Shown: positions 1,324-17,463 of the stretch, one piece after another | Numbering within the stretch: the first letter of the stretch is position 1 | Layout of the letters: every line of letters begins with the position of its first letter | DNA from: a virus | Reading direction: 5' to 3' (one strand) | IMG/VR virus record: IMGVR_UViG_3300022938_000123 | Coordinates: 1 to 21,685 of that record | DNA: 21,685 bases | Position numbers and translations under genes: made by a program | The notes under the pieces: generated by a model | Databases searched by the model: none | What the model was told of the DNA's origin: nothing | What the model saw: only the letters and a program-made list of their open reading frames with translations

Positions 1324-1374
1324 AAGTCATTTCTCCTTTTTTGCAAATGACATGATGCGCCTTTCCAGCCAGAT

Positions 1375-2358
1375 TCAGGCGTTAGCCGGAGGGGTAACGT
1401 CAAATATGACCTTACCGGCTTCGGATGCTGCCCGAATCATGGCCTCAAGGCGCTCGTACTCTTTTTCCTTCCCGCGATACTTGCCTTGCGCCGCATCAGC
1501 GTAGAACTTGGCGATTTCTGATTCCTTGATGGACTCAACATCACCGGTGTCTACGGGTGGCGGCGTGCCGCCAGTCGGGGTCGGAGTTTCCTGAGATTGC
1601 AAACGTGTCTGTTCGCCCTGACCATATTTTTCCTTGAAGATACTGATTTGGGCAATGATGGGCTGCGGATTCAGATCTCTTTGCGCCTTCTCGATAATAG
1701 CCTGACGCTCAACACCCAATTCCGGTATGACTTCTGCAAGGAAGCTCTTAAAAACATCCAGACCATTGATCGTTTCCCAGTCAGAATGAGCCTCGGATAT
1801 GGCGGTGAAAAAGGCCTCACCTTTACCCTTGTTCGATTCTGCTGTGAATGATTCAACTTTCTGAACCACTGGTTTCACTGCGTTAGCTGCCGCCTTCGCT
1901 GCTACATCATTGATCCATTGGGGCAGATCATCGCCGTACAGTTCCTTGATATTTTCCGGCACTTCAAAGGTGCTTGGAGCGCCTTCGCCTTCACCGGTCG
2001 TTGTCGCTGGAGCTGCTGGTGGTGTTCCACCGGCCTCAAGTCTTTCCAGTCTTTCCTTGAGAATCCGTATTTCCTCATGCAAGTTCGGAACCTCCGAAGT
2101 GTATTTACCATTCAATACATTAAACTTGTGAATGGCTTTTTCGGCCTCGGCTTTCCAATCTATTTTGCCTACCGGTTCCGGTGTTCCCGTTTCGGGAGTC
2201 GCAACCGGTGGAGTTTCAGGTGTCGCTGGCGGTGTTCCCTCGCTACCGGCCTCGGCAGTTGGGGAGCCTTCCGTTGACTTCTGTCCGTCCTTCAATGCCT
2301 GGAGTTCGGCATCTGCCGCTTCTCCAGCTTCTCGTACTTTCTTTGGTAGTCCTGACAT
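1375..2358 (-). CDS. Head scaffolding protein
   Basis: This 327-aa, highly charged protein has the layout of a phage scaffold. It has a low-complexity Pro/Thr/Glu-rich N-terminal region (about 30-65), a Leu/Glu/Lys-rich likely coiled coil (about 90-113, with EEIRILKERLERLEA), a second Pro/Ala/Thr linker, and helical segments in the C-terminal half. A CAGGAG SD lies 6-9 nt before the ATG. It sits between the portal region and the major capsid gene, where scaffolds are normally encoded. No protease domain is visible. Scaffolds diverge quickly, so the call rests on position and composition more than on sequence motifs. Confidence 0.8.
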   Translation of the reverse strand: MSGLPKKVREAGEAADAELQALKDGQKSTEGSPTAEAGSEGTPPATPETPPVATPETGTPEPVGKIDWKAEAEKAIHKFNVLNGKYTSEVPNLHEEIRILKERLERLEAGGTPPAAPATTTGEGEGAPSTFEVPENIKELYGDDLPQWINDVAAKAAANAVKPVVQKVESFTAESNKGKGEAFFTAISEAHSDWETINGLDVFKSFLAEVIPELGVERQAIIEKAQRDLNPQPIIAQISIFKEKYGQGEQTRLQSQETPTPTGGTPPPVDTGDVESIKESEIAKFYADAAQGKYRGKEKEYERLEAMIRAASEAGKVIFDVTPPANA

Positions 2359-7524: not shown

Positions 7525-10398
7525 TTAGGTTCGCGTGCCAAGTATGTCCCTGAAAATACCGCGATAAGGCCCATGGAACGCCCTGGTGAACATCGAGGAC
7601 TGGTATTGTGCGCCGCCCAGGATTGTGTGGGAGCCTATCTGTTCACTTGTTGGTATTCCCGTTGGGCCGATGTTGTTGGTGCTGTCCACCACGTTGATAT
7701 CACCGATTACCTCGGCTGTTGCGATGCCGCCAGCGCCGGTTATTTCCATGCCGATCAGCGCGGTTCCAAACGCCTCTGCACTCGCAACTCCATCCGGTAC
7801 AAAGATATAACCGGTGGTCGCAATGTGGGATCCAACCGCTTCCGCACTGGCTATACCATTTGCGACGATCGTGTACTCAGCCTGCAAGCTTGCGGCTCCG
7901 AAAGTTTCCTCGGATGCGATACCGGTGGGTAGCAGGCTCGGATCCCGCTCAACCAACTGGTCTGGAACAACCTCTGCTGTTGGAATACCGGTCGGAACAA
8001 CATTGACGTTGCCGGTCACTATGGCCGGATCCGGCACAACCTCTGCCGAGGTAATGCCCGTTATCACCATCCCGTAGTTTATGGACGGTGTTCCGATCGC
8101 CTCTGACGTTGCGATACCGGTTGCAACAATTTCCATGTTGATCGACAAACTGCCGATCGCCTCTGCGGTTGCAATGCCGGTGGCAACGATATCCACATTA
8201 CCTGGGGCCAGGGTATGAGAGCCTACGGCCTCGGCACTGGCGATACCGCCCGCGCCCAGGATCGCAAGGATCTGTGAGATCTCCGGATCACCTATAGCCT
8301 CGGCCGTTGCGATTCCGGTCGGAACGATATCTACATTGCCGGTTGTTAATGTCGCAGAGCCATGCGCTTCAACGCTGGCAATGTTACCAACACTGAGAAG
8401 CGAGAGATCGAGTTGCGCCAACCCAAACGCTTCGGCAGTCGCTATCCCAGTTACGATGATATCGTAAGCCGTTGTTACGACATGGCTCCCGACACTTTCT
8501 GCGGTCGCGATACCCGTTGGGATAATATCGACATTGCCCGCAAGAACCGTTAAATCTCCAACAACCTCGGCAGTGGCCACGCCGGTCATTAGAAGCGTCA
8601 GATCTAACTGTGCAGATCCAAACGCTTCCGCGCCCGCGACCCCTGTCATTAGAAGCGTCAGATCCAGTTGCGCCAACCCAAACGCCTCGGCCGTTGCGAT
8701 TCCGGTGGCGATAATCTGTAAATCAAGCTGTGCGGAGCCAAACGCCTCGGCCGTTGCTATGCCCGTAGCTACAATTTCCAGATCAAGCCGTGGTGAGCCA
8801 ATGGCTTCGGCGCTGACTATCCCCGTCAGGCCGGTTATGTCCTGATCTGCGCCACCGGCAAGGATTACTTCAAGACCAGATCCTATAGCCTCTGCGGTCG
8901 CTATGCCGGTCGGAACAATATTGACGTTGCCGGCCAGAACGGTAATCGCGCCAATGGCCTCTGCGGTTGCGATACCCGTAGCTACGATCTGCAAATCAAG
9001 CTGTGCGGAGCCAATGGCTTCGGCGCTGACAATGCCTGTCGCAACAATCTGTAGATCGAGTTGCGCGGATCCGATCGCTTCCGCAGTAGCGATACCGGAC
9101 GCGATTATTTCCAAATTGAGTTGAGCGGCCCCGATCGCTTCCGCAGTAGCGATACCGGTTGCAACGATTTGCAGATCAAGTTGCGCGGATCCTATGGCCT
9201 CGGTAGTGGCAATACCGCCAACAGTCCCGCTTACCGTCTGGTCATACTTTATGGTCGCAGAACCTACCGCTTCGGCGCTTGATATTCCAGTAAGGGGGCC
9301 GACTGTTTGATCCTGGCTGGCTGGCTCCGGAACATGCAATATCTGAAAAAGCATGTCAGAGCAATTAAAATCCTGACCCTTGTTGTCCTTTTCAAACCCT
9401 ATAAAACCATTATTAGAAGCCCCCGGAATGCGATCTTCTCTTACGTCAAAATAATTTACATAGCTAGTTGTAGGGTCAAAATCTGCTGTTCTATCTGTAT
9501 CAGTGGGGCTATAGTTTGAACTTACCATTAAACCATAATGAACCGCACCGGAGCCGCCTGTGCGCTTCATACGCCAGATGCCCTTCATGGCGACTATGTT
9601 TGAATCACCGTCTACATTTGAATCGCCGCTTGGCCCGCCCGCGTTTTCTGCGCCACCTAAATCGTTGGTCTGTGCGACACCCGCCCTTGCCGTGGTGTCA
9701 CTATATATTGCTACATTGGATTCGCTGAACGGAAGGTCTTGTGCGTCAACCCATTGACCGGAATTTAACGCCCCGTTTGAGCCTTTCGTGTAATCTGGTG
9801 TTGCACTTGCAAGGCTTGACCGATAAGCAAAAACCTCACAACCGCCAAGCCGGTCACTGGCTGAGGTTGCGCCTGACATAAAATAAATGTCATCAATCCA
9901 GTTAGTGGCGTCACTAAAGGCTAGTCGTACTAAATCAGGTGAAGACCCATTATCAAAATCCTCACCCGTAACCGATAATGCTGAAGTCCCATCAATAAAA
10001 ACTTCTGCTGTGGTAGTAGTAAAATAAACTTCTACATACCCGCCATCACTAAAATCAGCAGTAGCCGCATCAACCTCACTGGAATTTGCATCCCAAAGTC
10101 TGATTTGACCCAATGCGGTGCTTATTTGAATGGCAATTATTGGTGAGCCGCCACCTCTTATTGCTATAGTGATAGACCCAGCGGTTTGCTTAGACCAGAA
10201 ACCAAAAACATATCCCCCACCTGCATCCGCCACAGACTCAAACGGGTCAAAATCAATTGTGGAGGAACCGACAGCATGGTAGGAATAGGTTCCAGAGTTT
10301 ACCTCGGATGAGGAGATATCTGAGTTTGCATCAGAAGCTACGGTTTCTTCCAGACCGCCAGTTTCAGCACCCCAAAAATTATTAAGGGTTAAGGCCAT
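7525..10398 (-). CDS. Large repetitive fibre-like virion protein with lectin-like N-terminus
   Basis: A 957-aa protein in two parts. Residues about 1-365 form a globular, beta-rich region. Its first about 180 residues (the STIDFDP, YVFGFWSK, QIRLWDA, YVEVYFTTTT and IDDIYFMSG segments) resemble the jelly-roll of concanavalin A-like/LamG domains. Residues about 371-922 are 26 copies of a short repeat with the core GIATAEAIG, spaced mostly about 20 residues apart. The last 35 residues are a distinct cap ending with FHGPYRGIFRDILG. There are only two Cys, no signal peptide and no membrane segment. I infer a long adhesin or fibre with a carbohydrate-binding head. Similar G-I-A/P-S/T-x-E-A-F/I-G repeats are found in phage structural proteins of unproven function. 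It overlaps the upstream gene by 1 nt. Confidence 0.85.
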   Translation of the reverse strand: MALTLNNFWGAETGGLEETVASDANSDISSSEVNSGTYSYHAVGSSTIDFDPFESVADAGGGYVFGFWSKQTAGSITIAIRGGGSPIIAIQISTALGQIRLWDANSSEVDAATADFSDGGYVEVYFTTTTAEVFIDGTSALSVTGEDFDNGSSPDLVRLAFSDATNWIDDIYFMSGATSASDRLGGCEVFAYRSSLASATPDYTKGSNGALNSGQWVDAQDLPFSESNVAIYSDTTARAGVAQTNDLGGAENAGGPSGDSNVDGDSNIVAMKGIWRMKRTGGSGAVHYGLMVSSNYSPTDTDRTADFDPTTSYVNYFDVREDRIPGASNNGFIGFEKDNKGQDFNCSDMLFQILHVPEPASQDQTVGPLTGISSAEAVGSATIKYDQTVSGTVGGIATTEAIGSAQLDLQIVATGIATAEAIGAAQLNLEIIASGIATAEAIGSAQLDLQIVATGIVSAEAIGSAQLDLQIVATGIATAEAIGAITVLAGNVNIVPTGIATAEAIGSGLEVILAGGADQDITGLTGIVSAEAIGSPRLDLEIVATGIATAEAFGSAQLDLQIIATGIATAEAFGLAQLDLTLLMTGVAGAEAFGSAQLDLTLLMTGVATAEVVGDLTVLAGNVDIIPTGIATAESVGSHVVTTAYDIIVTGIATAEAFGLAQLDLSLLSVGNIASVEAHGSATLTTGNVDIVPTGIATAEAIGDPEISQILAILGAGGIASAEAVGSHTLAPGNVDIVATGIATAEAIGSLSINMEIVATGIATSEAIGTPSINYGMVITGITSAEVVPDPAIVTGNVNVVPTGIPTAEVVPDQLVERDPSLLPTGIASEETFGAASLQAEYTIVANGIASAEAVGSHIATTGYIFVPDGVASAEAFGTALIGMEITGAGGIATAEVIGDINVVDSTNNIGPTGIPTSEQIGSHTILGGAQYQSSMFTRAFHGPYRGIFRDILGTRT
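7633..9288 (-). repeat. 26-unit degenerate tandem protein repeat
   Basis: This is the DNA encoding residues about 371-922 of the 957-aa protein. Each unit carries a 9-residue core G-[IV]-[APTVS]-[TSG]-[ATSVE]-E-[ASTVQ]-[IFVH]-[GP]. In the best conserved block (about 390-500) each core is followed by an 11-residue spacer such as SAQLDLQIVAT, giving a strict 20-residue (60-nt) period. Elsewhere the spacers vary from about 10 to 18 residues, some with GNVDIVPT. The DNA copies differ at many third positions, so this is old, selected repetition and not a recent slippage array. Confidence 0.9.
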
Positions 10399-13536: not shown

Positions 13537-13947
13537 TCAGATCTTGTTGACGGAGATATAAAAGCCCAGGATGGCGGCATCGATTTCGCTGTCGAGCGTC
13601 AATGCAACCACCGCAGCAGCGGGGAAGAACTTGGTCACTGGTGCGGCTGGCGCAGATAATGGTGTTGCGACATTCAGATCCAGGGCATCAACAAAGCCGT
13701 TTGGATCCTCGGCCCAACCGAGATCGGCCGTTGCAACGCCGCCCTCTGCGGTTTCAACATCAGGAACGATGGTGACAATAGATCCGGCAGGAACATCGAA
13801 CAACTGTAGAACAGAAGCCGCGGCATAAGTCAGTGCCGAGGCATCGACCTGCACGTAGTTGGTGGAAGGATTGGCAGCTTGCCGACCAAGAGCGCGGGGC
13901 TGCATATTGGCAGAATTACCGCCAACTCTTAAATTGAATGTTGCCAT
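13537..13947 (-). CDS. Small beta-rich virion protein (structural-type)
   Basis: A 136-aa protein rich in Ala, Val and Asp with alternating strand patterns: VLQLFDVPAGSIVTIVPDVE, GVATADLGWAEDPNGFVDAL and a C-terminal AILGFYISVNKI strand. Small beta-sandwich proteins with an xTADLGxxxDPxGFVD-like centre are frequent in phage structural modules as decoration or head-stabilising candidates. GGAG lies 8 nt before the ATG. It is the first gene after the large terminator and structured leader at 13948-14190, so it probably heads a transcript of its own that continues into the lysis genes. Confidence 0.72.
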   Translation of the reverse strand: MATFNLRVGGNSANMQPRALGRQAANPSTNYVQVDASALTYAAASVLQLFDVPAGSIVTIVPDVETAEGGVATADLGWAEDPNGFVDALDLNVATPLSAPAAPVTKFFPAAAVVALTLDSEIDAAILGFYISVNKI

Positions 13948-13981
13948 TTTTAAATCTCCATCTGTGGAAAAGAATTAAGAC

Positions 13982-14092
13982 GGGTCACCGACTGTCGGTT
14001 GCATACTTGCCATATACGAACTTAAGCGGCCGGAGCGGAATGAGGACTAGGCATCGCCCCGCCACACCCTGTAGTTGAACAATCGGTGACCC
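13982..14092 (-). ncRNA. Candidate structured leader RNA element closed by a 10-bp stem
   Basis: A perfect 10-bp inverted repeat (GGGTCACCGA at 13982-13991 and TCGGTGACCC at 14083-14092) closes a 111-nt segment that has no gene. On the minus strand an inner helix can form between GGCGGGG (14063-14057) and CTCCGGCC (14035-14028). It has seven pairs, one G-U and one bulge, and the G-U pair favours the minus-strand RNA. The 3' arm of the closing stem can instead form a short ACCGA-CAG-UCGGU hairpin, so two folds are possible. The element lies in the leader of the 136-aa gene, with the SD 20-30 nt further on. The length and the lack of a T-loop rule out a tRNA. Confidence 0.5.
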
Positions 14093-14094
14093 AT

Positions 14095-14124
14095 AAAAAA
14101 AGCCGCCCTGGAAGGCAGCTTTAA
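14095..14124 (-). terminator. Rho-independent terminator after the sulfotransferase-like operon
   Basis: On the minus strand AAAGCTGCC (14122-14114) pairs with GGCGGCTTT (14107-14099) over 9 bp with one G-U, with a 6-nt loop, followed by a run of seven T. On the plus strand the same place would hold a C-A mismatch and no T-run, so the direction is clear. It ends transcripts coming from the XRE-deformylase-sulfotransferase genes, or acts as a leader terminator for the promoter-like boxes at 14159-14186. Confidence 0.85.
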
Positions 14125-14132
14125 GCTATTTA

Positions 14133-14147
14133 TCGGGTAAACCCCGA
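14133..14147 (-). other. Small hairpin upstream of the terminator
   Basis: TCGGG and CCCGA form a perfect 5-bp stem with a 5-nt loop just upstream (minus sense) of the terminator and downstream of the promoter-like boxes. It may be a pause or protein-binding hairpin in the leader. The stem is short, so it could be chance. Confidence 0.35.
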
Positions 14148-14158
14148 CAATCTTCTCT

Positions 14159-14186
14159 CTTATACAGGTTTTATCCCGCCTTGCAA
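14159..14186 (-). promoter_or_regulatory. Candidate sigma70-type promoter
   Basis: On the minus strand TTGCAA (14186-14181, 4 of 6 to the -35 consensus), a 16-nt spacer and TATAAG (14164-14159, 5 of 6 to the -10) are correctly spaced. A start near 14152 would give a leader of about 205 nt running through the hairpin, the terminator and the 111-nt stem-closed element before the 136-aa gene. It lies in non-coding sequence right after the stop of the sulfotransferase-like gene. Confidence 0.5.
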
Positions 14187-14190
14187 ACCG

Positions 14191-14996: not shown

Positions 14997-15509
14997 CTAA
15001 AGTGTTAATTGCCACGCATAGTCGTCTACGAAGTAAAGTGAAGCCGCGAACAGGGCTTTACCGTCCTTTTCTACCAGATCCTTGTTATGTTCGTTGATGT
15101 GTGGCATTTCATCGACGAGGATCCCGAGCCGGTTGAACATATTGAATAAACCGCGCTCAAGCCAGAAAACCTTATCGGCTATGTCGCGGTACGGGTTCAG
15201 GATAAAGGGATCGAAGCCAGGGCGCTCTGTGAGCTTGCCAATAGGCAGGCCTTTTTCTATAAAGTCCACAAACGGTTTTTTCCTGTTGGCAGTCGCCAGA
15301 TACCATGAAACAAGATGATCAAGCGGATCTCTGGTTACGGTGACAAGCGGCAGGCCGGTGGCTCTTTTTATTGCCATGGCCAGATTGCAGCCAACGTGAC
15401 ATTTCTCTGAAACAGTCGCGCCTGGGATCTTTGACAGCACCGCACGGCAGGACTTGGATCCGGTGCGCGGGGTTTCCAGAAAGATGAACTTATAGGGAAT
15501 GATTATCAT
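14997..15509 (-). CDS. Sulfotransferase-like protein (paralogue 1)
   Basis: A 170-aa protein with a 5'-phosphosulfate loop-like FLETPRTGSKS (10-20) and a 3'-phosphate motif-like TRDPLDHLVSWY (59-70). These are the two hallmark PAPS-binding segments of cytosolic-type sulfotransferases. The first 70 residues align with the 177-aa protein downstream; the C-terminal parts differ a lot, which suggests different acceptors. It keeps Cys21, Cys37 and Cys41. No SD is visible before the ATG at 15509, but a 7-codon frame (ATG at 15529) ends with TGA overlapping this ATG, so re-initiation is possible. No in-frame upstream start exists before a stop. Confidence 0.7.
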   Translation of the reverse strand: MIIIPYKFIFLETPRTGSKSCRAVLSKIPGATVSEKCHVGCNLAMAIKRATGLPLVTVTRDPLDHLVSWYLATANRKKPFVDFIEKGLPIGKLTERPGFDPFILNPYRDIADKVFWLERGLFNMFNRLGILVDEMPHINEHNKDLVEKDGKALFAASLYFVDDYAWQLTL

Positions 15510-16773: not shown

Positions 16774-16967
16774 TCATAAACTCCCATTTCTATGAAATTC
16801 CCACCGCTGTCAAAGTCGAAGATCGTGTAGAAGCAGTGATAACCCTTAACGCCTTCATCACCTTCGCTGCACGTGATGCAGTGGCCACCGGTTGAATCCA
16901 CGCCTTGCTCGGCATACTCGATGCCGAAATCATCAAGCAGGGTCTTGAGTTTTTGTAAATCATCCAT
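16770..16967 (-). CDS. Small hypothetical acidic protein
   Basis: A 65-aa protein starting MDDLQKLKTLLDDFGIEYAE, then a beta-hairpin-like stretch with HCITCSEGDEGVKGYHCFYT and a C-terminal FDFDSGGNFIEMGVYE. The helix followed by a three-to-four-strand sheet with FxFxxxGxFxxMGxxE is a common layout for very small phage proteins of unknown role. It overlaps deformylase by 8 nt and the next gene by 4 nt. Confidence 0.72.
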   Translation of the reverse strand: MDDLQKLKTLLDDFGIEYAEQGVDSTGGHCITCSEGDEGVKGYHCFYTIFDFDSGGNFIEMGVYE

Positions 16968-17463
16968 GTGCTGACCTTAATTTCGCGGGTGTGACACGGC
17001 GCTCAAACATGGTGATGCCATCAAGATGATCTATCTCATGCTGGACAACCCGCGCCAGATCGTTGCGCCACCTGTACTCAACCGGATTCCACAACACGTC
17101 ATAACCTCTTACCGTGATCTTCTTATGCCTGAAAACCTTCACATGTGAAAGCGGGAAGGACAGACAACCCTCTTCCTGGCACGACATACCGCCCCAGGCC
17201 CGCACCACCACCGGATTAATAAGCGCTTGTGTAAAGCCGTTGAAGTTAATCACTATCACACGCTTCATCACATCGACCTGATTCGCGGCCAGCCCCCAAC
17301 CCGACTGATCCTCACAGATCTTCAACATAGAGGCCACCAGTCCAAGCACAGACTCACCTGCCGGAACCTCAGCACAGTAATTTTTCAGATTGTGGCTACT
17401 TACCTTCATTTCATCGGCCGCTACATCGTTCTCGCTTAAATACTCCTTCAACATGTATTTCAT
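16960..17463 (-). CDS. def: Peptide deformylase
   Basis: This 167-aa enzyme removes the formyl group from the N-terminal Met of new proteins. All three family motifs are intact: motif I GWGLAANQ (55-62), motif II EEGCLS (97-102) with Cys100 as metal ligand, and motif III QHEIDHLDG (141-149) with His142 and His146 as metal ligands and Glu143 as catalytic base. Length is normal for a bacterial-type enzyme. It has a short N-terminal extension and no targeting signal. AAGG lies 8 nt before the ATG, which directly follows the stop of the XRE gene. Phage deformylases are known from marine phages and cyanophages. Confidence 0.96.
   Translation of the reverse strand: MKYMLKEYLSENDVAADEMKVSSHNLKNYCAEVPAGESVLGLVASMLKICEDQSGWGLAANQVDVMKRVIVINFNGFTQALINPVVVRAWGGMSCQEEGCLSFPLSHVKVFRHKKITVRGYDVLWNPVEYRWRNDLARVVQHEIDHLDGITMFERRVTPAKLRSAHG

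Follow-up and report, generated by a model that had tools for sequence, protein, structure and literature searches.

An intrinsic terminator and a leader with a predicted stable fold between two gene blocks of an uncultivated tailed phage: a putative transcription-unit boundary

Structured 5' leaders stabilise bacterial and phage mRNAs, the E. coli ompA leader being an example. The locus described here has in common with leaders of the ompA type a stable stem that lies 5' to a short single-stranded ribosome-binding stretch and precedes the gene of a probably abundant protein. It differs from them in that its element is larger, multi-branched and placed directly after a terminator, and its stabilising effect is putative. 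With the lambdoid PR'/tR'/Q system, in which a -10-like sequence is used in the initial transcribed region (PMC6606751), it shares a terminator within the leader before lysis and structural genes. Unlike that system, it has no recognised Q gene or Q site, its promoter is weak and an extra 115-nt fold lies past the terminator. Like the element, the HK022 put RNA is folded and lies close to the beginning of a long phage operon; its action in cis reaches terminators 10 kb or more distant (PMC9378689). However, put is about 70 nt long, consists of two stem-loops and lies downstream of early promoters, whereas here the terminator comes first, and no sequence relation to put was found. The phi29-type prohead RNA (PMC5340915) resembles the element in length (about 117 nt), in its paired ends and in its two-arm junction.

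The window, by which we mean the whole stretch of DNA analysed, is the 21,685-base record IMGVR_UViG_3300022938_000123 of an uncultivated tailed phage, which is probably a fragment. We examined a minus-strand leader of 243 nt (13948-14190). Downstream of it the late block runs uninterrupted on the minus strand over 13.5 kb, from 13947 down to 409. It begins with genes for a 136-aa protein, a 169-aa protein, a DUF5675 protein and a holin, continues with structural and tail genes and ends with packaging and capsid genes, namely small and large terminase, portal, a gene in the scaffold position and the major capsid protein. The families matched in this block are virion structural, lysis, terminase, portal and capsid families. 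Upstream of the leader, the same strand encodes two HTH proteins, a peptide deformylase (16960-17463), two paralogues and unknown proteins. The leader is the boundary between this small regulatory and accessory block and the structural, lysis and packaging block (Table 1). The paralogues, of 177 and 170 aa, are 34% identical and are separated by an 87-aa gene; sulfotransferase-like motifs were recognised in them by eye only, with no significant family match. The 957-aa tail protein of the late block (minus-strand gene 7525-10398) contains many repeats of about 20 residues within 7672-9300, with a DNA spacing of 60 nt.

Table 1. Features of the leader and its flanking genes (coordinates are those of the window)
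Feature	Coordinates	Strand	Remarks
Upstream gene, 177 aa	14191..14724	-	paralogue of the 170-aa gene at 14997-15509
-35/-10-like boxes, TTGCAA-16-TATAAG	14159..14186	-	seen in the sequence, weak; TTGCAA 14186-14181, TATAAG 14164-14159
Upstream hairpin, core TCGGG-GTTTA-CCCGA at 14147-14133	14129..14150	-	folds as 8 pairs
Intrinsic terminator, 10-pair stem AAAGCTGCCTTCCAGGGCGGCTTT then T-run	14095..14122	-	top-ranked among the terminator-like sites of the window
P1 5' arm, ATGGGTCACCGATTGTT	14078..14094	-	17 continuous pairs with 13996-13980
P2 arm, G+C-rich, 17-nt loop	14026..14065	-	centroid structure; alternative pairings, moderate confidence
P3 hairpin, GTATAT-GGCAA-GTATGC	14001..14017	-	common to MFE and centroid structures
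P1 3' arm, GACAGTCGGTGACCCGT	13980..13996	-	17 continuous pairs with 14094-14078
32-nt linker with Shine-Dalgarno GGAG	13948..13979	-	partly covered by a weak 6-bp hairpin
136-aa gene, first of the late block	13537..13947	-	ATG at 13947

A 9-bp intrinsic terminator with seven T had been proposed for this leader, and it is borne out: a G+C-rich stem is followed at once by the T-run, and the stem has 10 pairs when its U-G closing pair is counted. The core pairs have probabilities of about 1.0 in the predicted ensemble. From the upstream genes through the end of the late block, it is the only strong terminator on the minus strand. We found no antiterminator fold competing with it. A riboswitch or attenuator with two exclusive folds, one of them the terminator, was rejected because the terminator 5' arm has no competing partner with a probability above 0.05. 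The terminator and the helix P1 do not compete with each other in the predicted folds.

Past the terminator, the sequence-only reading had placed a 111-nt segment closed by a perfect 10-bp stem. The perfect arms are present (GGGTCACCGA at 14092-14083 and TCGGTGACCC at 13991-13982, minus strand), but the stem is longer than described, since P1 has 17 continuous pairs, three of them G-U, and closes a fold of 115 nt. In shuffles of the 243-nt leader the 17-pair helix had P = 0.0017 and the 10-bp stem P = 0.016. The latter by itself is not notable, because the whole window holds five perfect inverted repeats of at least 10 bp with a span of 40-200 nt, as compared to 2.8 expected from shuffles. P1 exists on the mRNA-sense strand only, as its G-U pairs become A-C on the opposite strand. 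That strand has no helix of 12 or more pairs with a comparable span, and its DNA fold is not significantly stable.

The 115-nt element is predicted to form a three-way-junction-like structure, in which P1 closes two arms, P2 and P3, with a folding energy of -50.5 kcal/mol. In the predicted ensemble P1 is formed essentially always, with pair probabilities of about 1.0. The element has a z-score of -3.8 (1 of 200 shuffles equally stable) and the leader one of -4.8 (0 of 200). The z-score of the leader alone is not exceptional, because about 17 others among the 1438 windows scanned had an equal or lower value. After the stem come GGAG and then the ATG of the 136-aa gene, so that the Shine-Dalgarno site claimed for this gene was verified. 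Open reading frames of up to 26 codons occur in the leader, none of them with a visible Shine-Dalgarno site. No tRNA or tmRNA was found, and no match in the window exceeded the gathering threshold of any Rfam family; the best sub-threshold matches fall mainly on the terminator. A partial copy of the gene start within the element was considered and rejected, as 43 of 500 shuffles were equally good.

On the upstream side of the terminator, the -35/-10-like boxes noted earlier at 14186-14159 are there, but they match the consensus only weakly. About 35 sites on the same strand of the window are equal or better, and the boxes rank about 42nd-60th among the sites of the window. The 5-bp hairpin also noted there was recovered, and with its flanking TTG/TAA it folds as 8 pairs. 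Between the terminator and the 136-aa gene we found no convincing sigma-70 promoter: the best score, 7.0, is reached by 812 sites on the strand. The late mRNA would therefore have to arise from a phage-specific promoter, by RNA processing or by read-through.

We favour, with about even confidence, a model in which the leader is a transcription-unit boundary. The terminator would stop the message of the upstream accessory genes. The late message, probably starting just past the T-run, would fold at its start into a very stable element made of the 17-pair P1 and the two-arm junction, so that a short linker, which carries the Shine-Dalgarno site, separates the fold from the first late gene. Such a fold would most likely protect the late mRNA from decay at its 5' side and separate the ribosome-binding site from upstream RNA. 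Of the functions first offered for this leader, protection or insulation of the 5' end is the best fit to the boundary position, the strong terminator, the sense-strand-specific fold and the short linker before the ribosome-binding site. For antitermination and for a stable small RNA we obtained no positive evidence, with no competing fold, no Q-like gene recognised beside the site, no Rfam match and no homologue in the collections searched. We also count as support that this phage has another large hairpin 33 nt before its major capsid gene, compared to 32 nt here, and that this second hairpin shows compensating changes in L003. The main weakness of the boundary model is the missing promoter after the terminator.

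That missing promoter keeps alive a lambda-like gate, which we consider rather unlikely. RNA would start near 14152 and stop about 58 nt on, until a later phage factor permits read-through into the late genes. The boxes, the short leader, the terminator and the late block are indeed ordered like PR', tR' and the late genes, and positions +1 to +6 of the putative transcript, GATTGT, are a formal match to a -10-like pause element (NANNNT). However, such a hexamer has a chance of occurring of about 1 in 5 by our own arithmetic, and the promoter is weak. A Q-like protein was not recognised among the proteins scanned in the window, which is probably part of a larger genome, and the upstream neighbour is not one. 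Inspection by eye showed no Q-site-like direct repeat between the boxes, although Q sites vary between phages.

The 115-nt element might instead be all or part of a stable small RNA that is cut from the late transcript and acts in trans. Its compact fold with ends joined by a long helix would fit this, but it has neither a promoter nor a terminator of its own, no Rfam match and no homologue, and we regard this as distinctly unlikely. Three further proposals we rate, all to the same degree, as very improbable. One is that the element belongs to a new class of cis- or trans-acting phage RNA, made only past the terminator and needed for expression of the late block or for assembly. Another is a put-like cis RNA that makes polymerase ignore later terminators across the 13.5-kb late block, as its two arms and its location at the beginning of a long operon might suggest. 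It is made less likely by the position of the element past the only strong terminator, where it could not rescue polymerase; few strong terminators lie downstream on the strand to be overcome, and the element is larger than put and has one long closing helix rather than two stem-loops. The third is an element acting at the DNA level, either a tiny mobile insertion, of which the arms would be the terminal inverted repeats, or a site bound by a protein. The inverted repeat is perfect over 10 bp and, when extended, matches at 13 of 15 positions, but the extension depends on G-U pairing, which occurs on the mRNA-sense strand only. Neither the window nor the phages and plasmids searched hold a second copy, and no flanking duplication was seen by eye. 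The switch once suggested between the 111-nt fold and a small hairpin in its 3' arm is hardly credible: the local pairing CCGA-CAG-TCGG is possible, but the proposal is contradicted by the predicted cost of freeing the P1 5' arm, 18.8 kcal/mol, with P1 pairs at a probability of about 1. A prohead-RNA-like role, suggested by the shape of the element, was rejected, as the phage has an ordinary small and large terminase and not a gp16-type motor; prohead RNA gave no Rfam match to the element even at E 5. A 4-nt loop-loop complementarity, UGCC/GGCA, is possible within the element, with a chance of roughly 1 in 10 by our own arithmetic.

We searched for relatives of the leader and of the neighbouring genes. 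BLAST searches of phages and plasmids with the leader found no homologue. A comparable helix occurred in 0 of 226 leaders of 83 related records, these leaders being roughly called with a crude gene finder; the same search code recovers P1 in the window itself. A covariance model built from the single sequence had no match in 42 related records, which is a weak negative given that no positive-control genome was available. The pattern of exact arms matched 53 times in viral contigs, apparently by chance; several of these matches are near-identical to each other and none is element-like. A search with the 136-aa protein gave only L002, whose protein is 37% identical and encoded directly after the L002 capsid gene; weak matches lie at the same post-capsid place in two more records. 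The genome collection contained no homologue of this protein and only distant terminase matches, and protein searches with the 177-aa and 169-aa proteins found no homologues. In our phage the 136-aa gene is the first of the late block and is separated from the major capsid gene downstream by more than 12 kb, and this position is unusual because its relatives directly follow the capsid gene. The nearest relatives are L003, with a terminase 80% identical, which is a 7.5-kb fragment ending short of the leader region, and L040, with portal and capsid proteins 57% and 69% identical. The leader may be particular to this phage lineage.

The strongest fold of the window scan is a long hairpin at 1357-1453 (minus strand), which covers the capsid leader together with the last part of the scaffold-position gene. 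It has counterparts at about 6798-6922 in L003 and about 11363-11471 in L040. In L003 the two main helices keep 15 of 16 pairs (9 unchanged, 4 with a single-side compensating change, 2 changed on both sides and 1 broken), and a short third helix that lies between them is not conserved; the L003 region overall is not unusually stable. The equivalent hairpin of L040 differs in sequence, and only 2 of 200 shuffles matched its stability. In all three, GTCATTT(G/A)CAA follows the hairpin and starts 28-31 nt before the capsid ATG. These compensatory changes are a lead and not a result, with helices picked from the window's own fold, a hairpin that partly overlaps the end of the preceding gene and few sequences.

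Taken alone, the leader fold is an isolated case for which no relatives are known. The compensation in the capsid hairpin suggests that structured leaders before virion genes may be selected in this group. If the fold sets the stability of the late mRNA, the leader would be a compact example of the separation of early and late messages combined with protection of the late message.
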